A stretch of 64,000 nt of DNA, taken from NCBI GenBank assembly GCA_027923505.1, contig BROI01000004.1, positions 682,001 through 746,000 on the forward strand, written 5' to 3'. Of the stretch, positions 4,779 through 16,249 are shown piece by piece (position 1 is the first letter of the stretch; each line of letters begins with the position of its first letter). Source of the DNA: Mayamaea pseudoterrestris (taxonomy: Eukaryota; Bacillariophyta; Bacillariophyceae; Sellaphorales; Sellaphoraceae). The position numbers and the translations under genes were made by a program. Under the pieces are notes generated by a model. That model worked only from the letters and a program-made list of their open reading frames with translations. It was not told where the DNA came from and made no database searches.

Positions 4779-7700
4779 ATGCCACCCCGGGCCGTCACCT
4801 TTCCCTTGGGCAACGCGCACCGCGACGCTTGTTTGCGCTGCATGCACTTGGGGCCTAAGCCCCATCGCCTCTTGGTGCAGCGCATCTATGGCTTGCTATT
4901 CAAAAAGCTCACCAAGAATGCACCGCCGCCGGAAAGTGACGACTCGAACAAGGAACCATTGGCACTTGGTTGTGCATTTTTGCTGCTGGTGGTTTGGAAG
5001 TCTTTCGAGGAGCAGGAGCGAGTGCGACTCGAACAGGAGGAGGAGGCACCAGAAAACGACGCTATGAACAACGACATCCATGCAGCACCATACACGGCCA
5101 GCACGGATCCCTACTTTTTGCTGCGCCAAGTCACGACCGACTACGCGCGGCTGGTCCGCCTTTTGGCGGGTGGGCAGCAGCAGCAACATCCTTATCCCAG
5201 CTTGCTCGTGGCGGCCAAGGCGATTTTGTCGCAGTACTTGGAGACGTGCGAAAAGATTCCAAAGTGGATGCAGATTGCAGCGAGTAAAGTGACGGCGGAT
5301 GCGTTTCTAAATGAAACTGCAGCAGCAACATCAGTGGACAAGAAGACCAGTGTCGATCCACCTACTGCCGCCGACGAGGATGACGACGAGGAGGAGGACG
5401 ATGAAGACATGGACAATGACGACGAAAACGACAATGCGCAGACGGAAAAGAAGCAAAACAAACGCCAGCTCGTTGCCAATGCTACGGGTCCACTGCTGCA
5501 GTTTTTGCGCTCCGTGTTGCAAGGATTGGTGGAAAATACGACGATTCTAATGTCCAGCTACTGCCTCGACTTTGGTCCGCTGTGGGACCGCACGGCGTGC
5601 AACTCGCTGGAACCGACTGTTTGGACGCGCTACATGCAGCAGCTGGTGACACATGATGCAGATCATGATAATGAAACGTCAACGCCAAGCAGTCGCGATG
5701 AACCTTACGTCATCATGCTGGGTGAGCATGCGATTCAAAATGACGCGCAAGTCATGATGCAACTGCAAACGGTGGCGTGGAAGATGGCATGCTATCGGGC
5801 ACATGTGTTGCACTCACAAAATACTGCGAGCGGTTTGCCGAGTCGGCACGAGCGACTCTTGGCGTCGTGCGGATCATTGTCGTTTGTCTTGGCGTTGAAT
5901 CGCATCATGATGGATCACATCATGGCGGAAAGCGATGGCGACGAGGATCGCATGAGCAAAAAGTTTAGAAAGGACAAGCTGCTGGAAACGATTCGGGATG
6001 CTGTCACTGATTCGAGAAACTTTTCGCGGTGGACACCGGAAGGTAGTGACGACAATAAAATAGGGTCCGAGCTAAAGGCGGATGAGCTGCAGGAGGAGGT
6101 GACCGCACTCGCCACGGCTGTATACGCTGTTGTTGCTCAGGAGGCACCATTGAAACCAAAAAGTGACGATTCGCAACCGAATTCCCCAACGAATGACGAT
6201 TCTCGGATTCAGCAACTACTGGAACTAATGCCGGATGGTGTCGATCCACACAAGGTTGTATTTTATTTACCTTCAACGGCCGACTTGTTGTACAACTCGA
6301 CCCTTGAAAATTTGAAGCTGAAAGAGTTTCATCCAAAGGACATTGCTTACATGAATGAGGCCGACTTGGCGGAAATGAACGCCTTGGATGCGATTGTCGT
6401 TGGCGCGCACGAGTTTCGCAAGATTGAGCCGCAGGATAAGGGTCTTATAGTCTCGCCGGGTGGATCAACAGCTCGTCGTGTTGTGACGCCTCCTGTATTG
6501 ACGAGCAATATGGAGCTCAATGAATGGACCGTGTCACTTCTCTACCTGGAGACTGTGAAACCGAGCAAGTTGCTGATGGACTTTTTGAACTTGGCAAATA
6601 GTTTTACTACGAACGAGAAAAAATGTTTCAGTGTCGTCTTCCCAATCTTGAATCGCATTCTTTTGAGATTATCCCAAGAAAACATGCTTGAAAAGACGAG
6701 TCGAGTATCGCCTATCAATGTCAATTCTTCCACTGGTGTGGTCGAAGTAGCCGGTGAAGCAAGTCCCGACAAGCAGCTTTGTACTGCTGTTGTTGCCTTT
6801 TACTACCACGCCCTCGAAGCCATTCTTTATAGCGAAACAATTCGCCTACCCAACTTCTCGCACCAGCGACTAGTCTTTGATCCGGGCTTCCATAAATCAT
6901 TGCTGGCCTGCTGCATCATGTGCGTGGTCAAGGCTGTTGGCGTAACTCAAAAGATACGCCCAAGCGGCAACATACAAAGTCTCCAGATTTTTGGTGTCTT
7001 ACCAATTGCTGAGATCAGTGCGTACGACTTTTTAAAAATATCTGAATCTTTTGTTCGTGCGCTGACGTCCAGTTCCGCGCGTGGAAAGATCGGCTCGCCT
7101 CTTGTGTTTGCCTTGCCGAAAATTCTCGTCAAGGATATTAAGCGAACTGAAAGCGTTATCATGGATTCTTTACTTTGGGTTCGTGACAAGAAATCTCCCG
7201 AGTCTATGATAGATATGATTGAAGATTTCCAGGAAAAGACAGACAAAGGCTCCAGCTGTCTATGGCCACCACAAGTGCTAATGCCTGCTGCACACGAACC
7301 TCCCGAGTTTGATTGTATTGATCTGCCCGAGCGGAGATATCCAAGTTCTGAACACGAGGACTACGCTGATTACCGATGTGTTTCCTACCTTCTGCGTCGT
7401 CTGCTGAAAGTTGCAAAAGACCGCATTCAAGCCTTGTGTAGCTTTTTGGGTATCCCTCATCATCTGCCGGTTGCTCATCAGGTATGGGTAGCCTTTCGTT
7501 ACATTCTTCGCAACCATGTCGACTTGCTGTATGACCGACATTTGGACCATTTGATTCTATGTTGCTTGTACGGTGTTTGCCGAGCGTTGAAGTACGATCC
7601 AGATCTTACATTTGCCCGCATAATAGACGCCTATGTTGTGATCAGAGGGCCAGATTTAGGCGATGTTACCTGCCAGCGCATCGTACGGCATATCAAGATC

Positions 7701-8018
7701 ATGGACGCTGCTCCGCAGCCTATCGCCGACATCATCTACCTATACAATCATGTTTTCTTGTGGAAGGTCCATCAGCACTTGCTGCGAAGTAAATCTATTC
7801 AAGTGGCTTCGGAGGAAATCGCAAATGTGTCTCGCACACGTCATATCCAAGTCAACTCTAAGTCGCTTGATTCTCATCTAAAAGACACGCAGGACGCCCT
7901 TCGAGGACGCAGTGAGAAACAAATCACACAAGCAGTTATTCAGATGGGCACGCCGGTTCCTGGAGAACTTTCGTTAATAGGTAAGGCTGGCGGCGATTCA
8001 ACGACTACCCTACCTTAA
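4779..8018 (+). CDS. RBR: Retinoblastoma-related protein
   Basis: The protein has 1079 residues in a single exon, within the usual RB/RBR length. The N-terminal region (about 60-180) has the cyclin-like N domain, with CAFLLLVVWKSFEEQERV and an LLRQVTTDY..LVRLLAG helix. A spacer at 185-225 is almost purely Asp/Glu. Pocket A spans about 577-790 (NEWTVSLLYLETVKPSKLL, FYYHALEAILYSE, FHKSLLACC, FLKISESFVRAL). Pocket B spans about 862-1000 (YLLRRLLKVAKDRIQALC, HQVWVAFRYILRNHVDLLYDRHLDHLILCCLYGVCR, IIYLYNHVFLWKVHQHLL). Pocket B holds the LxCxE-binding cleft in this family. RB proteins bind E2F/DP in the nucleus and repress S-phase genes until CDK phosphorylation. Several SP/TP sites lie between the N domain and pocket A and in the A-B spacer. 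The acidic spacer is the main oddity. Confidence 0.93.
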   Translation: MPPRAVTFPLGNAHRDACLRCMHLGPKPHRLLVQRIYGLLFKKLTKNAPPPESDDSNKEPLALGCAFLLLVVWKSFEEQERVRLEQEEEAPENDAMNNDIHAAPYTASTDPYFLLRQVTTDYARLVRLLAGGQQQQHPYPSLLVAAKAILSQYLETCEKIPKWMQIAASKVTADAFLNETAAATSVDKKTSVDPPTAADEDDDEEEDDEDMDNDDENDNAQTEKKQNKRQLVANATGPLLQFLRSVLQGLVENTTILMSSYCLDFGPLWDRTACNSLEPTVWTRYMQQLVTHDADHDNETSTPSSRDEPYVIMLGEHAIQNDAQVMMQLQTVAWKMACYRAHVLHSQNTASGLPSRHERLLASCGSLSFVLALNRIMMDHIMAESDGDEDRMSKKFRKDKLLETIRDAVTDSRNFSRWTPEGSDDNKIGSELKADELQEEVTALATAVYAVVAQEAPLKPKSDDSQPNSPTNDDSRIQQLLELMPDGVDPHKVVFYLPSTADLLYNSTLENLKLKEFHPKDIAYMNEADLAEMNALDAIVVGAHEFRKIEPQDKGLIVSPGGSTARRVVTPPVLTSNMELNEWTVSLLYLETVKPSKLLMDFLNLANSFTTNEKKCFSVVFPILNRILLRLSQENMLEKTSRVSPINVNSSTGVVEVAGEASPDKQLCTAVVAFYYHALEAILYSETIRLPNFSHQRLVFDPGFHKSLLACCIMCVVKAVGVTQKIRPSGNIQSLQIFGVLPIAEISAYDFLKISESFVRALTSSSARGKIGSPLVFALPKILVKDIKRTESVIMDSLLWVRDKKSPESMIDMIEDFQEKTDKGSSCLWPPQVLMPAAHEPPEFDCIDLPERRYPSSEHEDYADYRCVSYLLRRLLKVAKDRIQALCSFLGIPHHLPVAHQVWVAFRYILRNHVDLLYDRHLDHLILCCLYGVCRALKYDPDLTFARIIDAYVVIRGPDLGDVTCQRIVRHIKIMDAAPQPIADIIYLYNHVFLWKVHQHLLRSKSIQVASEEIANVSRTRHIQVNSKSLDSHLKDTQDALRGRSEKQITQAVIQMGTPVPGELSLIGKAGGDSTTTLP

Positions 8019-8405: not shown

Positions 8406-10984
8406 TCACCGACTTGCTGCTGTCGGCGCTAGTTCAGGCGTCGGCCTTGTGATTTTGGGCCGCGTAATGTAGTCAATCGTCTCCCGCACTTCATCCGTCA
8501 TAGAGAAGTCCCTATCGGTCATGTACCGAATATCGCATTCATCGTCGAGCGACCCATCCTCCTTTTCGCATGGTCGAAAGAGATAACCTGCCGCCTTGCC
8601 AAAATTATACACATCCAGAGGATCCTTGCCAGAGCCATCGTCAAGCAACTTGACGCACTTGCTTTTAATGTCAAAGATGATTGGGAGTCCATTCGGAATT
8701 TCCAACTCAACTATTTTCTCCTCGGGTATCTCACAGAGATGCATCAGTAATCCCCGAATGGCATTTTCGCTACTTGAAATTAGCACTCGCTTGCCCTGGC
8801 TGACAGCCTCCGGAATGATTTTCTCTGTGAAGAAAGGAATTGTTCGGTCCATGCAATCTTTCAATGACTCTGTTTTGGGAAGTTTGCGATGAATTATTGG
8901 TCGACCCTTCTCAATGCTTCGTATAGCACTCTCCCGAAAGCCCCAACGAACATCATTCAAGTACTTTTGATATCGTCTATCATTGCCGGGATAGTGCTGT
9001 GAGAATGACGAGACAGCAGGAGGCCTTGTAGTAAAACCTCGGCGCCAAGCTTTAAATTGTGTCTCACCATGGCGCTGCTTTACCATCTGCTTGGACAACC
9101 CTGTCAGCTCCCCGTACATTCGTTCATTTAAACGCCATGTCTTGATCATCGGCAACCAGAGCGAGTCGAGCTCATCCAAAACGTACAAAGCAGTCTCGAT
9201 TGCGCGCGAGAGCCAGGACGTGTACACCACATCAAATTCAAATCCATGTAGCTTCAACAATCTGCCCGCTGCGCGGGCCTCTTCGACACCATCTCTCGCC
9301 AGAGGAGCATCTTCCCAACCTGTAAAAAGTCCTAACTTGTTGTGCTCTGTCTTGCCGTGACGAATAATAACAATGACAGGGTCTCGTCGGATCGGTGTTG
9401 CTCCAATGCCTGGAACGAGCGTCGCACTTGGTATGGCCGTCACACAAGGATTGTTGCTGGACATGAGCGGCCTGATAAACGTATTTCCTTCACCATCACG
9501 AGGTCCATTTGCAGCACTGGCGGCCTGCCGAAATGCGTGCTCCGGACTAAATTGTTCACCCGACTTTAGCTCTTGCATACCAAGCTCCCATATCTTGTCT
9601 TCTACCAATCTGAGCGGCTTGCCGTTGTTACCGTCGGTTCCGTCATCTTCTGCCGCAGAAGGATCAAAAAACTGTCCCGCCCAAGTTTGAATTTCGCGCT
9701 CGGCCATGAGCTTGTAAAGACTCCGTTCCAAGGCACTCATTGGGGTCTGCGCGCGTAACATCTGCTCAGTGTAGCCAGGCACTTTCTTGCACCACTCTTC
9801 TTCGCGTTTCAAGGCCTCTTTGAGTAGGCCTGGCTTTTCGAGAAACAGTCCGTTCATGTGTACCTGAGCCGTCGTTCGCTGGTCGATATTGGGTGGAATG
9901 GATACCATTTCCTTGTTGAACTTGTAGATAATTGGAATTCCAGTCGGTATGGCAACTTCTTGAATGTCTTCGTCGTCGATATTATCAATAACTTTGACCT
10001 TAGGGGGATAATAGAATGTAAGAATTACAGAGACAAAGTGCAGATTGGTTTTGATCTACTTACCAATCCGCGAAGAGTATTGGCATGCGCAACAACCATG
10101 ACATTCTTCCCTCGACGTAGCTCATACACAATCTTGCAATCCCAGAGCGGCTTGACGCGCTCCATGCAATCCAGCAGCGATTCGGTGCGAGGTATTTGCT
10201 CAGAAGTTAAGTCAGCGTACTTACGATCCTTGCCTGGCCAGTATGCATCACCTGGCTTGACTGCGGGCGGCCTACTCTTGAGACTGCCTCGCCATTGCTG
10301 GACAAGATCTGGTCCGAGTTGAGACGCAGTATCCTTCTTGCCAAGCCCAGTCAATGCACCGTACATGCGCTCATTAATCCTCCAACTTTTGAAAACAGGA
10401 ATATACACGCTGTTCATTTCCTGCAATATAATCCAAGCACTGCGGATTGCCCGTTTCAACCTTGATGAGAAGACTACATCAATTTCATATCCTCCTTCCA
10501 GCAGCAACCGGGCAGCATGTTCCGATTCTCGTCGTCCCTTTTCGGTCAAATCAGGATCTGCCCAGCCTGTAAACGTTTGATTGGCGTTCCACGCCGACTC
10601 GCCATGACGTACAAGGATCAGTGTTCCCGGTTCCCTTGCCTGCGGAGAAATGAGTGCCTTAATGGGTGCACGGATCAGTCGCATTAGCAGGGAGCGCTTC
10701 TTTCGTCGCATATCGCCATATCCATCCTCATTGTCTTCTCCGTCAACTTGAGGCCAGAGGAAGCGAAAAAAGCTGCCTCGCTTGTCAAGTTCATTAGAAT
10801 ATTTGTAATTGGACGTGTATCCATTGATTTCGCCTTTTGTAAAGGGTTCTGCTGGTATTCGCGTTGATTGCTGTGATCGTTTCGTTATTGATGAGATTGT
10901 CGGAACGACAAAAGCATCGGCCCTCAAAATCAAGCTCATCACAGCTGCAAGAATAAACCGTTGCCATTTTGCAATCCTTGCCAT
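8406..10984 (-). CDS. Plastid-targeted tandem fusion of two phosphoglycerate mutase (dPGM-type) domains
   Basis: There are two exons, 10984-10064 and 9998-8406. The intron 9999-10063 (65 bp, GTAAGT...AG, phase 0) falls just after the catalytic motif of domain 1. The joined protein has 837 residues. Residues 5-30 are a signal peptide with the ADAFVVP junction typical of diatom plastid import. Domain 1 (about 120-335) has RHG (His127), the SRLKRA element, NERMYG with Glu205, and VVAHANTLRGL with His300. Domain 2 (about 513-740) has RHG (His521), the W..NERMYGELTG motif with Glu599, but ISSSENAIRGL where the second catalytic His should be (Ser717). A linker of about 180 residues joins them. dPGM interconverts 3- and 2-phosphoglycerate in glycolysis. 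Domain 1 looks active; domain 2 may be inactive, regulatory or altered in reaction. Confidence 0.88.
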
Positions 10985-11330: not shown

Positions 11331-12692
11331 ATGACGAGTCCCCGGCGTCCCGCGGAGCATCGTATGCAGAGAAGAAGAAGATCATGGTTCATGAGCAGCA
11401 TATTACTGCTTGTAACATTCCTGCAAGTGCTTCGGCATCGAGCTAGTTCTGACGAGCAATTTATGGAGTCGAGGCATCCACTCGGCACGCGACGAATGAG
11501 AGCGATACCACAAACGAATATAGAAAAGGACCTACGCTATATAACATTTGGATCATCTATTACATGGGGTGTCGGATTGGATGATTTTAAACAAGCTTAT
11601 CCGTATCGATTGTCGTCCAAAGTTCGCAACGCTGCGAGCCGCATGGGAGGCGCGGCGCTTGCTGCCGCCTGTACCGAAACGATTGTCGGAGAGGATTTGT
11701 TTGATGTCGTGACTATTGAGTTTGTTGAGTTTGACGAGACGCATGTCATTTTGTCCAAGCGTCTCAGGCGGCGATTTCCAAATGCTGTGATTTTGTTTGT
11801 TCGGCTTTGGCATCCGGAAAACATTAGATATACTTCTGATTTTGGTGATATAATAGACTTAAATACTTGGCGAACAGTCAATGGGGGTCATTCAATATAC
11901 TCAAGTGAGCTGGCACTACTCATGATGGAAGCTGGGCCCGCCAAGTGGCATATACAAATCCCTGATGACCCGCTACTGAAGAATACGGTCGAACACATTG
12001 GCGCTCGAGTTGTCATTTTACCCATGCCTGATCAGGAAGCGTATGCGTTCCCGCAAAATCTGCTATCGTTTCTTACATTCTTTGATGAGAATGAGCACCA
12101 TTTACTGACAGCGAGGGGGCATGCTGCGCTTGCTTTGGAAATTTTAAGCGCTGTCAAAAGTGTTAGCTCTCTAGGGACGAGACTTGATGGTACCGTTGGC
12201 TCTTGGGGATCGGGTGATCAGTGCAACATGTGGTACTATAATGGTCAATTTCTTACATCGAGCGGCCAAAAACTCAAATTCTCGCAGGATGGTGACGGGT
12301 CACACAAACATGCGCTCGAATTCATGCCAGGTGGTGGAGCCTGGATTCGCGTGACAAACAAGTTTGAGAGTGATCGTATGCTGCATCTTACATATATGAC
12401 TGCATCGGACGAAGAAGACAATAAAGTCTACCCCCGAACACGAGTTCGAGTCAACAACCGGGCATTTGTTGTGTTGGAGCCTTACAATGAGGGAACCGAT
12501 GATGCTCACTTGACGCGCACCTCTGTGGTCGGCCGCATACCTCCCGGTGAATCTGTAATTTACATGGACCCGTTGGAGACATCACAGCTTTACTTCCGAC
12601 TAGTGGGTGCCAGCCTTTTGAGTGAGGAAGCAATTGAAGGTATTTTACCGATCGATTTTAAACTAGAGCCTGAGCCGGCTGCTGCCTTTTGA
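11331..12692 (+). CDS. SGNH/GDSL-hydrolase-like type II membrane protein
   Basis: From the chosen ATG the protein has 453 residues. The basic N-terminus (RMQRRRRSW) followed by SSILLLVTFLQVL makes a signal anchor, so the domain should face the secretory lumen. Residues 70-80 (YITFGSSITWGVG) match SGNH block I, with Ser76 in the nucleophile position. DENEHHLLTARGHAALALEIL near residue 250 resembles block V, with the catalytic Asp/His pair. Beyond about 290 is a beta-rich region (WYYNGQF, GGGAWIRVTNKF, YMTASDEED). Many carbohydrate or lipid esterases share this fold; the substrate cannot be told. An alternative start 207 bp upstream would add residues without family character and crowd the divergent promoter. 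Block III (GxND) is not obvious, so activity is uncertain. Confidence 0.6.
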   Translation: MTSPRRPAEHRMQRRRRSWFMSSILLLVTFLQVLRHRASSDEQFMESRHPLGTRRMRAIPQTNIEKDLRYITFGSSITWGVGLDDFKQAYPYRLSSKVRNAASRMGGAALAAACTETIVGEDLFDVVTIEFVEFDETHVILSKRLRRRFPNAVILFVRLWHPENIRYTSDFGDIIDLNTWRTVNGGHSIYSSELALLMMEAGPAKWHIQIPDDPLLKNTVEHIGARVVILPMPDQEAYAFPQNLLSFLTFFDENEHHLLTARGHAALALEILSAVKSVSSLGTRLDGTVGSWGSGDQCNMWYYNGQFLTSSGQKLKFSQDGDGSHKHALEFMPGGGAWIRVTNKFESDRMLHLTYMTASDEEDNKVYPRTRVRVNNRAFVVLEPYNEGTDDAHLTRTSVVGRIPPGESVIYMDPLETSQLYFRLVGASLLSEEAIEGILPIDFKLEPEPAAAF

Positions 12693-13292: not shown

Positions 13293-15812
13293 TCAATGCT
13301 CTAGTGTATGTGAATGATCACGGGGGAACGGAATTACCAGAGGGACGGTTGTGCCGTGTCGAATCTGAACCAGGAATTTTGTAAAGTTGCTTCGCTGGAC
13401 AAACTTTGATATGGTGGAGCACCCTTGCGCATGTATATGCGTCTGGATAACAGCCGATTCGAAAAGTCCAAGCTGGCATATGACATTACCCACTGCAGGC
13501 CTTGGCCTCGACGACGAAAAGTGGACACTGCCGTCTAAATTGACAATTCGCTTGCTAAATCGCTCATCCCATGATATCTCCTTCATTTCCACTCCGCGCC
13601 TCCGAGTGGAAGCATCGACCGACTGCAACTGCTCTCGTATAATAATCGGATAGTCGTGTCGTCCAGTATTTTGCACGACGGTTCGCAGTTCAACAACTGG
13701 TAGTGACGTGAACGTGTCCTGGCCGTCAGAGCGCTTACAACTTCTCAATGTTTCTCCATTGCTTCGCTCCACCAGAAATGTCCAAGCGGAAACGACACCT
13801 TGCAATCGCGCTTCTCCGAGGAGGAACATTCCGTCGTGATTGAAGTGCGGCATTACATTCTCCGCATCCATACACTTGTAGAGACGAAGCGGTAGGCACG
13901 ATATCCCCTCATCAGCGTCCTCCAATTTCTCCCGCCATTGTCTAACATTGAAGAATCCAAAGCGCTGGATTGCCATGTCATTCCAAGCAACGGAGCCGTC
14001 AAAGTGCCGCTTGAACGTTTTCGAAACTTGTGTGCATCGGACAATTGTCTTTGGATCAAGGAACGATGCAATGCATGAATTGACGCGGGATGAGCTTCCA
14101 AGAATTAAATCCATTCCGTTGCGAATGGTAATGTCAATCGCCAGTCCCTGCTGATTGTGATGCAACACTTGGTCGACGCGGCAACGTTTCGCTTCCATTT
14201 CTTCCGTGTAAACGGCGCCATTTTCGTCCGCCTTTCGTTTGTGATCTCCATTCTTTAGTTCGTTCTTAGTTGAAACCAGCTCCCTCATGAGCAAGTCGCA
14301 CTGAGTGTTCAGGTATTCGACCATTTTGGCAGCGGATCGGACAAAGGTTGGCCTGTCCCATTTCTTGGCTTGCTCGGCAGTCAGCGTCGCTTCCGTCAAA
14401 CAAGTTGGAACACTGCTCGTTATGAAGCTAGAAGACGGTTTCACGACAGTCTGCCACTGATCGGCCCGTTCCTTGGACTGCGACCCTGCCACATGAATGG
14501 CAATGCTCAATTGCTCAATACTTTCGTTCAACTTGACGCGGGCAACCTTGGCGCGATGCTTTTTGCGCTCATAGGCATCGCCCGCGTTGACATTGTTCGC
14601 GTTGCTGCCACTATCGTCCGGGTCGTCGCCATCGTCGTGCGTGGCGGAACGCTTGTTCTTCACACTACCTCCGCCAGTCGTTGCTTTTGGAACATGCGAC
14701 AGTGGCTCCGGAATACTAGGCACCTTGTGCTTACGGCCAAAGCCATACTGGGACTTTTGCTGCGAGGCGCGCTCAATGGAGGCTGGAATGCTCTTGCTGG
14801 CAGACGCTTGATGATTTGCTGCGCTGTTGGTGGAAGCTTGCCGCTGCGCGTCAGTGGCCGCAAACGATCCACTGCGACCAGCATGGTCGGAATGCTGCTG
14901 CAGCGACAACTCTGGTGATGCCATGCCACCACTATCATTGACTATCGATCCTCGCATAAAGTTGATATCGCGCGCCCCATTGACTGGAATGGGAAGGGCC
15001 TGTTGCCGATGCTGTCCCGAGTGTCGTTGCAGCATGGTCGTTCGCTTGATTTCCTCCAGCGGCGTGGGATCGACGGAAAGTGCATCCAGCAATTGTTCGT
15101 CATTATCGTATAAGGCAGTCGTATCCTTCTTTTCATCTTGAATCGATGCCACGTAGTCCATCATTTGATAGTCAAAGAGTTGCTCCATGCTGTCGCCGCG
15201 GAGGCGAGGCTGGTTGGTCATGTCTTTGCGAATGCTATTGGTACTTGCTGTTGCTGTCTCCCTGTTGCCGTTTATCGCAGCAAAACTTGCTGCTGCTGCT
15301 GCTGCTTGTGCATCTTGTCCAATGGTATTGTAATTTCTTGTAGTTGTTGCTGCTGTCGTAAAGGTACCACGCGTCAACGCGCCAGCGTTGGCGTAACTTC
15401 CATGGTACGCGTGCCGGTTGCTTGATCCCAAGAAGGTTTCGCCCAAGTTTTCCGGCTTGTAGTCATTGGTATTAACGCTCCCATCTTGTTGCTGCTGCGG
15501 CTCGTGAAGGTAGTGAAGCTTGCGAAAGGACGAGCCGGTGCGATCCACGTTTTCCACAAAGGTTGGTAAACGGGCATTCTCCTGCAGCACCATGTGCACC
15601 GAGTTTGTCAAACGCCACGTCATGTCGTCATTGTCATGCATGTCATTGTGATTGGGACTATTCTGCAGTGAATGTTGTTGATCTCCGTCGTGATGCTGCG
15701 GAGAAGAGGCGCTCAGCGTATCGTCAAAGCTCGTCATGAGCTCGTCCAAAATGTCCATGGCGTCGATGGACTCGGCGCGACTGCGAAAGTTAGGCGATGC
15801 AGGTAGTGACAT
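13293..15812 (-). CDS. F-box-like domain protein with long disordered N-terminus
   Basis: I start at the ATG at 15812 (839 residues), because the 40 codons upstream look like translated leader. The opening region is a conserved-looking acidic helix (IDAMDILDELMTSFDDTLS). Residues about 60-500 are Gln/Asn/Ser/His-rich and disordered. Near residues 605-660 comes an F-box-like element: VNSCIASFLDPKTIVRCTQV followed by TFKRHF and WNDMAIQRFG. The remaining 180 residues are a beta-rich domain (MFLLGEARLQGVVSAWTFLVER, VELRTVVQNTG). F-box proteins link SKP1-cullin ubiquitin ligases to targets, so the C-terminal domain would be the substrate reader. The F-box is divergent and could instead be a generic helical motif; no leucine-rich or WD repeats are visible. 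It shares a divergent promoter with DPH4. Confidence 0.6.
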   Translation of the reverse strand: MSLPASPNFRSRAESIDAMDILDELMTSFDDTLSASSPQHHDGDQQHSLQNSPNHNDMHDNDDMTWRLTNSVHMVLQENARLPTFVENVDRTGSSFRKLHYLHEPQQQQDGSVNTNDYKPENLGETFLGSSNRHAYHGSYANAGALTRGTFTTAATTTRNYNTIGQDAQAAAAAASFAAINGNRETATASTNSIRKDMTNQPRLRGDSMEQLFDYQMMDYVASIQDEKKDTTALYDNDEQLLDALSVDPTPLEEIKRTTMLQRHSGQHRQQALPIPVNGARDINFMRGSIVNDSGGMASPELSLQQHSDHAGRSGSFAATDAQRQASTNSAANHQASASKSIPASIERASQQKSQYGFGRKHKVPSIPEPLSHVPKATTGGGSVKNKRSATHDDGDDPDDSGSNANNVNAGDAYERKKHRAKVARVKLNESIEQLSIAIHVAGSQSKERADQWQTVVKPSSSFITSSVPTCLTEATLTAEQAKKWDRPTFVRSAAKMVEYLNTQCDLLMRELVSTKNELKNGDHKRKADENGAVYTEEMEAKRCRVDQVLHHNQQGLAIDITIRNGMDLILGSSSRVNSCIASFLDPKTIVRCTQVSKTFKRHFDGSVAWNDMAIQRFGFFNVRQWREKLEDADEGISCLPLRLYKCMDAENVMPHFNHDGMFLLGEARLQGVVSAWTFLVERSNGETLRSCKRSDGQDTFTSLPVVELRTVVQNTGRHDYPIIIREQLQSVDASTRRRGVEMKEISWDERFSKRIVNLDGSVHFSSSRPRPAVGNVICQLGLFESAVIQTHIHAQGCSTISKFVQRSNFTKFLVQIRHGTTVPLVIPFPRDHSHTLEH

Positions 15813-16249
15813 GGTTGATCGTTGTTTGTAAAGGGCCAAAAGGGAGCAGCTATAGCTATAGTAATGAATGAGCGATGAGGAAAGCTTTGCGGTCGGCCGA
15901 AGGCATAAGCAATATAGCTGCAAGCAACACAAAGTAGACTATTGGGCTCTCTCTCTTTCTAGTTTATATAAATGAGCTAGAACTTGAACTATCAAAATAG
16001 TATTGGCTATTGGAAAATGGACTCATGCAAGCTTGCTTGGTTCAGAGGATTGCTGTTCGCGGCGCACAGCACGAGGCGGTACCAAGTACCGGAACGACGA
16101 GAACGTTCAATGCTGCTACGACATGATGACGTTTGAAGTAGAAAAGTGCAGCAAACCACTCGCTTGCCTTGGACGACCATGAACATCATTCTTCCCATTA
16201 CTCCACTGCAGCACCGCGACCAAAGCTTGGTGACGACGACGACGACGAC
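15813..16249. other. Divergent promoter region (F-box gene / DPH4)
   Basis: A 437 bp gap between divergent starts. A palindromic TATA-like element TTTATATAAA lies at 15963-15972, about 150 bp upstream of the F-box gene ATG. The DPH4 frame is open back to 16169 but only from a TTG codon. No other structure is seen. Confidence 0.4.

Follow-up and report, generated by a model that had tools for sequence, protein, structure and literature searches.

The tandem mutase gene and its surroundings

The window, that is, the whole stretch of 64,000 nucleotides of Mayamaea pseudoterrestris DNA that was analysed, carries on its minus strand a two-exon gene encoding a protein with two dPGM-type domains. 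The gene and its features are as follows.

8406..10984, minus strand (10984..8406): mutase gene; 837-residue product with two dPGM-type domains
10064..10984, minus strand: exon 1; 921 nt, 307 codons, residues 1-307; signal-peptide-like start, ADA/FVVP and most of domain 1; PF00300 (His_Phos_1) E 1.4e-28
9999..10063, minus strand: intron; 65 nt, phase 0, GTAAGT...CTAAG; starts with GTAAGT and ends with CCCCCTAAG
8406..9998, minus strand: exon 2; remainder of domain 1, then linker, domain 2, C-terminal tail and stop TGA (8408..8406); PF00300 E 8.1e-32
9885..10630, minus strand: domain 1; residues 119-345, split by the intron; all three triad residues present (H127/E205/H300), G233 in place of the second WRR Arg
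9384..9884, minus strand: linker; residues 346-512 (167 residues); conserved part around GLFLEKPGLLKEALKREEEW, predicted to be helical
8637..9383, minus strand: domain 2; residues 513-761; RHG and NER kept, Ser in place of the second His
10604..10606, minus strand: His127 codon; nucleophile position of domain 1; His in 108/109 class A and 0/59 class B chains (classes defined below)
10085..10087, minus strand: His300 codon; second His of the domain 1 triad
9357..9359, minus strand: His521 codon; nucleophile position of domain 2; His in 113/113 class A and 62/62 class B chains
8769..8771, minus strand: Ser717 codon AGC; within ISSSENAIRGL, aligned with the second catalytic His; Ser in 113/113 class A and His in 63/63 class B chains

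The reading frames of exon 1 and exon 2 both run into a stop within the 65-nt intron, and joining the exons rebuilt the domain 1 dPGM motif AHANTLRGLVKVIDN, in which AHANTLRGL continues into VKVIDN. The first-pass annotation had described a 65 bp in-frame intron; the rebuilt motif bore out the join, but 'in-frame' describes the intron only loosely, as its length is not divisible by three and stops lie inside it. In one relative, P0017 (540 aa, 90% identity across 72% of the query), we observed an apparent intron read-in right before KVIDN, and this intron probably sits at the same place as that of the window gene. Additionally, MMETSP ORFs tagged 'complete' (relatives P0007, P0018 and P0033) hold both domains. 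An error of the gene model or the assembly, in which a false intron fuses two neighbouring genes, is extremely improbable; the two frames do appear as separate entries in the ORF list, but the splice sites are canonical, the join restores the domain 1 motif, and tandem chains, transcriptome ORFs included, are present in many diatoms and other ochrophytes.

As evident from profile searches, both halves of the protein matched pgm_1 (TIGR01258), with 267.8 and 247.7 bits against a cut-off of 81.7, and both domains were assigned to the dPGM family by PF00300, TIGR01258 and fold matches. The single chain with two dPGM domains proposed in the first-pass annotation was thus upheld for the joined 837-residue protein. 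The AF2 model of a close relative (P0002, 858 residues) had a pTM of 0.80 and suggests, but does not prove, that the two domains are held in a defined packing; the model of exon 2 of the window gene had a pTM of 0.61. Plastid-targeted proteins of diatoms carry a signal peptide followed by an ASAFAP-like motif with an aromatic residue or Leu at +1. Read by eye, the N-terminus of the window protein showed ADA/FVVP after a signal-peptide-like start, in agreement with the plastid-type N-terminus noted earlier, and the protein may be plastid-targeted. An aromatic residue after the likely signal-peptide cleavage site was seen, again by eye, in the window protein and several of 22 printed N-termini from both classes of relatives.

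The neighbouring ORFs are of other kinds. At 4779-8018 on the plus strand lies an ORF of 1079 aa that matches the retinoblastoma A domain (PF01858, E 1e-15) and B domain (PF01857, E 1.5e-21); by these matches it is a predicted retinoblastoma-family protein, encoded tail to tail with the mutase gene. An ORF of about 453 aa, counted from an inner ATG, lies divergent from the mutase gene at 11331-12692 on the plus strand and had no Pfam match at E 0.01. Finally, an 879-aa ORF at 13293-15932 on the minus strand (839 aa scanned) showed a weak F-box-like match under the cut-off.

Active-site residues and two classes of tandem chains

The best 120 matches from each of three protein-collection searches (428, 414 and 653 matches) together gave 199 different proteins. 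Counting as full length those that covered at least 85% of both domains, we retained 176 of 200 rows (the 199 relatives and the window protein). The 24 relatives left out covered less than 85% of domain 1 or domain 2; 18 of them had Ser717, two had His717 and four ended before position 717. Residue 717 split the full-length rows into 113 chains with Ser (class A, including the window protein) and 63 with His (class B). Among the matches listed, class A comprised diatoms and, more distantly, the pelagophyte Chrysophaeum, the pinguiophyte Pinguiococcus and Chromera velia, so that the arrangement, which could have been taken for a one-off oddity, proved to be a widespread ochrophyte family that extends to Chromera. 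The nine readable names in class B among the matches listed were all diatoms (Attheya, Thalassiosira, Cyclotella atomus, Chaetoceros by its taxid, Stephanocyclus, Cyclotella meneghiniana, Nitzschia, Amphora and Cylindrotheca), the names of the remaining class B chains being lacking or cut off. Judged by name, Cyclotella meneghiniana has both a class A chain (P0065) and a class B chain (P0149).

In the dPGM mechanism, a phosphohistidine forms on the His of RHG, a Glu acts as acid/base and a second His lies beside the phosphate; mutagenesis of His181 in the yeast enzyme reportedly lowered activity strongly. Domain 1 of the window protein contained R126, H127, E205 and H300, that is, the nucleophile, the acid Glu and the second His. 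The corresponding residues in domain 2 were R520, H521, E599 and S717; the RHG nucleophile and the acid Glu were each present in 113/113 class A chains, and the second His was replaced by Ser717 in the same 113. S717 aligned with the second catalytic His of the E. coli (1e58), human (PGAM1) and Naegleria (5vve) dPGMs, and this His was retained in all five single-domain dPGMs compared. Since Ser717 was present in every full-length class A chain, chance can be excluded. The contrast of one complete triad (H127/E205/H300) with one incomplete triad (H521/E599/Ser717), as drawn in the first-pass annotation, was confirmed. The first-pass annotation had also asked whether the serine is fixed in relatives; it was in class A (113/113) but not in class B, where all 63 chains have His.

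We also looked for a different conserved His that could serve as proton donor in domain 2, a finding that would have undermined the earlier interpretation; across the 113 class A chains, none other than H521 was fixed. H617 was considered as a substitute and rejected; it occurred in 95/113 class A chains, yet it was also present in the aligned human and Naegleria dPGMs. A 22-residue insertion preceding KLPKTES was observed in domain 2 (residues 657-678, positions 8886-8951); the chains shown, of both classes, had it in domain 2, and it was absent from domain 1 and from the aligned single-domain enzymes.

Domain 1 was only partly as intact as first described; its catalytic His pair and Glu are in place, but the second Arg of WRR is missing. 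R232 was kept and the second position was G233, with Arg at this position in only 4/113 class A chains. The WRR Arg pair belongs to the substrate pocket of dPGMs. We would expect altered substrate binding in class A domain 1 from G233, and this domain may not be an ordinary mutase.

The two classes were also separated at the nucleophile of domain 1. It was His in 108 of the 109 class A rows with a letter at this position, the exception being P0092 with a run of Ser, and in none of 59 class B rows, which had Cys (42), Thr (7), Gly (6), Ala (2) or Ser (2). All six triad positions were filled in 167 chains, and nine further full-length chains were gapped there. Among the matches listed, exactly one triad was complete in 165 of these 167 chains, in domain 1 alone in 107 and in domain 2 alone in 58; no chain had both. 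The two chains with neither were P0012, in which the domain 1 motif breaks off, and P0092, and both look like faulty gene models. P0012 is a class A chain listed under the name of the ciliate Tiarina fusus, and it may stem from diatom food in that culture. Class B is one clade, and the clean split reflects few evolutionary events rather than 165 independent ones.

In the Mayamaea genome, an exon-by-exon search for a class B copy matched over both domains at the window gene only. Elsewhere, the class B query matched dPGM-like stretches on C6, C18, C22, C24 and C28, and PF00300 gave 34 matches in the genome. As far as the exon-wise search tells, Mayamaea has class A only. The stretch at C18:567950-568660 is a dPGM-like ORF; its second His lies in GHEN, and it sat on a very long branch in the tree.

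Conservation and possible role of the incomplete domain

We compared the conservation of the complete and incomplete domains. Mean pairwise identity in domains 1 and 2 was 0.631 and 0.700, respectively, for class A (55 non-redundant chains) and 0.574 and 0.760 for class B (35 non-redundant chains). Upon comparison of 15 dPGM pocket positions, picked on the basis of the dPGM literature, class A domain 2 was found to keep 14 in 112-113 of 113 chains, the second His being the sole loss. The first-pass annotation had called domain 2 decayed, a description at odds with these data, as the domain is more conserved than domain 1. In contrast, class B domain 1 had drifted at N16 (30/60), E88 (39/63) and N185 (38/63) (E. 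coli positions), and its second His was kept in 63/63. The identity values and the pocket positions together indicate that class A domain 2 is held by selection and that class B domain 1 is under looser constraint. Mainly because the pocket of class A domain 2 is conserved while that of class B domain 1 has drifted, we consider that class A domain 2 may still bind something. It also has the features of a pseudoenzyme domain, in that a catalytic residue is lost and the fold is kept; the AF2 block of domain 2 had a pLDDT of 88-97 and a predicted dPGM fold.

Given the dPGM mechanism and the yeast His181 data, domain 1 is expected to be catalytic and domain 2 to bind without normal turnover. We consider it probable that the protein is a plastid-type tandem dPGM with one complete site per chain, in which domain 2 of class A serves as a ligand-binding partner and the roles are swapped in class B. 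In class A, His127 of domain 1, the putative catalytic half, would be phosphorylated by 2,3-bisphosphoglycerate, with 3- or 2-phosphoglycerate, or else water, as acceptor of the phosphate. Domain 2, with its predicted dPGM fold, ligand pocket and phosphorylatable His521, would show little or no turnover with Ser717. Most likely, it would serve domain 1 as a partner subunit within the same chain and set the activity of that domain through binding of 3-PG, 2,3-BPG or 2-phosphoglycolate; ligand binding could report plastid 3-PG or 2-phosphoglycolate to domain 1. By their titles, entries 7n3r and 7n3s contain human BPGM with 2-phosphoglycolate. In class B, the diatom duplicate, domain 2 with its complete triad would be the active half and domain 1 would lack the nucleophile.

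Two other roles for class A domain 2 were weighed. It is rather unlikely, but conceivable, that this domain is still an enzyme, such as a phosphatase, with Ser717 standing in for the His well enough to allow a phosphohistidine and either slow hydrolysis or use of a different substrate. Such an activity would fit the retention of His521, Glu599 and six pocket Arg positions in 112-113/113 class A chains and the conservation of domain 2 beyond that of domain 1. However, the second His is kept in the five single-domain dPGMs compared and, as His717, in 63/63 class B chains, where domain 1 is incomplete, and the strong loss of activity said to follow mutagenesis of yeast His181 also argues against it. 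Less likely still is a purely structural role, in which the fusion would lock the dPGM dimer into a single chain, with the second pocket left as a ligand-free relic. The tandem model of P0002 (pTM 0.80) is in line with such a prop, but a relic pocket should drift, and the domain 2 pocket of class A does not. Class B domain 1 illustrates the contrast, with Cys, Thr, Gly, Ala or Ser at the nucleophile in 59/59 chains and Glu205 changed to Gln, Gly or Asn in 24/63.

Direction of the proposed active-site swap and comparison with known systems

Trees were computed with the catalytic columns excluded. The joint tree, containing both domains and five single-domain dPGMs, and the first rooted concatenated tree used 46 of 90 non-redundant chains; the second rooted concatenated tree used 87 of 90 (P0092, P0129 and P0149 left out). 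The concatenated trees were rooted with four single-domain enzymes, and the C18 enzyme of Mayamaea was included in the joint tree only. In the unrooted concatenated tree (90 rows), class B formed one clade (100/100), which was joined by P0183 (98/95). P0183 has Ser717, a degenerate domain 1 (NERNTG, THDD) and a class-B-like N-terminus; it is possibly devoid of any normal active site and may be a candidate intermediate between the classes. The joint tree placed domains 1 in one clade and domains 2 in another, with the base of domain 2 unresolved, and joined class B domain 2 to P0183 (98/82). In the rooted trees, other ochrophytes and Chromera branched first, then further lineages, then diatoms enclosing P0183 and class B.

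Because the rooted trees nest class B within class A beside P0183, Ser717 appears ancestral to class B and His717 was probably regained. In the reading that we favour, and that we think fairly probable from the trees, a duplicate of a tandem enzyme in a diatom ancestor regained the second His of domain 2 by a point change and domain 1 lost its nucleophile, which would amount to a relocation of the active site. A non-catalytic domain kept ready by ligand binding would have been switched back on, and the active domain switched off. The state before this regain would be the Ser717 found in every class A chain among the matches listed, those of Chromera and other ochrophytes included. We did not favour a single-domain dPGM as donor of a domain 2 segment carrying His717, as the flanks in class B (TSHENAIRGILMHLC) are of the domain 2 type, with the reservation that the single-domain C18 enzyme also has HEN, so that Glu718 alone is no marker of this type.

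An ancient paralogy, which competes with relocation on the direction of the swap only, is a possible but less favoured account. The ancestor would have had two complete sites, class A would have lost the second His of domain 2 and class B the nucleophile of domain 1, class B would have survived in diatoms only, and no catalytic His would ever have been regained. Both rooted trees oppose it by nesting class B in class A beside the diatoms (97/88, 96/71, 97/86 and 98/98 in the first; 97/89, 96/75, 99/88 and 99/97 in the second), and class A was one side of a branch in 0% of 200 bootstrap trees. When P0183 was removed, class A was again not one side of a branch, and diatom class A and B were separated from the rest at 100/97. 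The joint tree gave moderate support to a position of class B domain 1 within diatom class A (81/84, 83/47, 96/86 and 96/77). In the unrooted and the two rooted concatenated trees, P0183, with its Ser717, was sister to class B (98/95, 98/98 and 99/96). Ancient paralogy also requires that class B was lost in other ochrophytes.

However, none of seven AU tests rejected the rival topologies at 0.05 (p 0.06-0.47). Class A as one clade had p values of 0.236 (domain 1) and 0.22 (domain 2), and of 0.060, 0.362 and 0.223 in the rooted concatenated data; adding rows weakened the test (0.060 at 50 rows, 0.362 at 91). A diatom class A clade was likewise not rejected, whether P0183 was included (p 0.252) or left out (p 0.465), and the unresolved base of domain 2 in the joint tree also leaves room for ancient paralogy. 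At 17 columns separating diatom class A from class B, P0183 was A-like at 10, B-like at 2 and neither at 5, which favours ancient paralogy; at the same columns, the other class A chains were by majority A-like at 13 and B-like at 3. The N-terminal motif YSRCL, which lies before domain 1 and outside the tree columns, instead links P0183 to class B, as it occurred in 24/52 class B and 1/104 class A Met-starting chains (P0183 itself), the motif having been picked after P0183 was seen. The looser YSR[CDSYF]L occurred in 32/52 and 13/104 of these chains, respectively.

Compared with ordinary dPGMs (TIGR01258, PF00300), the window protein differs in having two domains per chain, no second His in domain 2, no second WRR Arg in domain 1, a plastid-type N-terminus and a 167-residue linker. 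Vertebrate tandem hexokinases are likewise a duplicated enzyme in one chain, of another enzyme family; in some isozymes one half carries out catalysis and the other regulates. The plastid PGAMs described for the diatom Phaeodactylum (cpPGAM1A, cpPGAM1B and PGAM2) are plastid-targeted and share PF00300 with the window protein, which has a plastid-type N-terminus; their alignments span 220 columns (PGAM1) and 235 columns (PGAM2), and the available text mentions no tandem protein (PMC11371179), though cpPGAM1B might conceivably be the tandem gene. Similarly, no tandem PGM is mentioned in the accessible parts of PMC6198282, PMC5715807, PMC2173943 and PMC5124317. Our literature search, which covered mostly open text, found no paper on a tandem, fused, double or duplicated phosphoglycerate mutase, and an earlier description may exist; the pseudophosphatase papers that it found concerned other folds. 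Receptor tyrosine phosphatases, with an active D1 and a pseudophosphatase D2, also combine a catalytic and a catalytically dead copy in one chain, the dead state being predicted in our case, but their fold and chemistry are different (PMC7320164). One member described there has two dead domains, which is not a paralogue with its site in the other domain (PMC7320164). The stramenopile TPI-GAPDH and UGP-PGM (phosphoglucomutase) fusions are sugar-metabolism enzymes fused in the same lineage; unlike the tandem dPGM, they are described as joining different enzymes rather than two copies of one (PMC2173943).

Taken together, the arrangement is real and conserved, and its mirror-image paralogue points to a moved active site. 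Pseudoenzyme domains are commonly regarded as irreversible losses. In the two sister families described above, which belong to a central carbon enzyme, each chain has exactly one complete site, in opposite halves, so that the role of the incomplete half and the question whether a lost catalytic residue was restored in nature are both open to direct test with small soluble domains. The tandem dPGM is also a candidate regulator at the 3-PG branch point of the diatom plastid, where Calvin-cycle carbon exits towards pyruvate.
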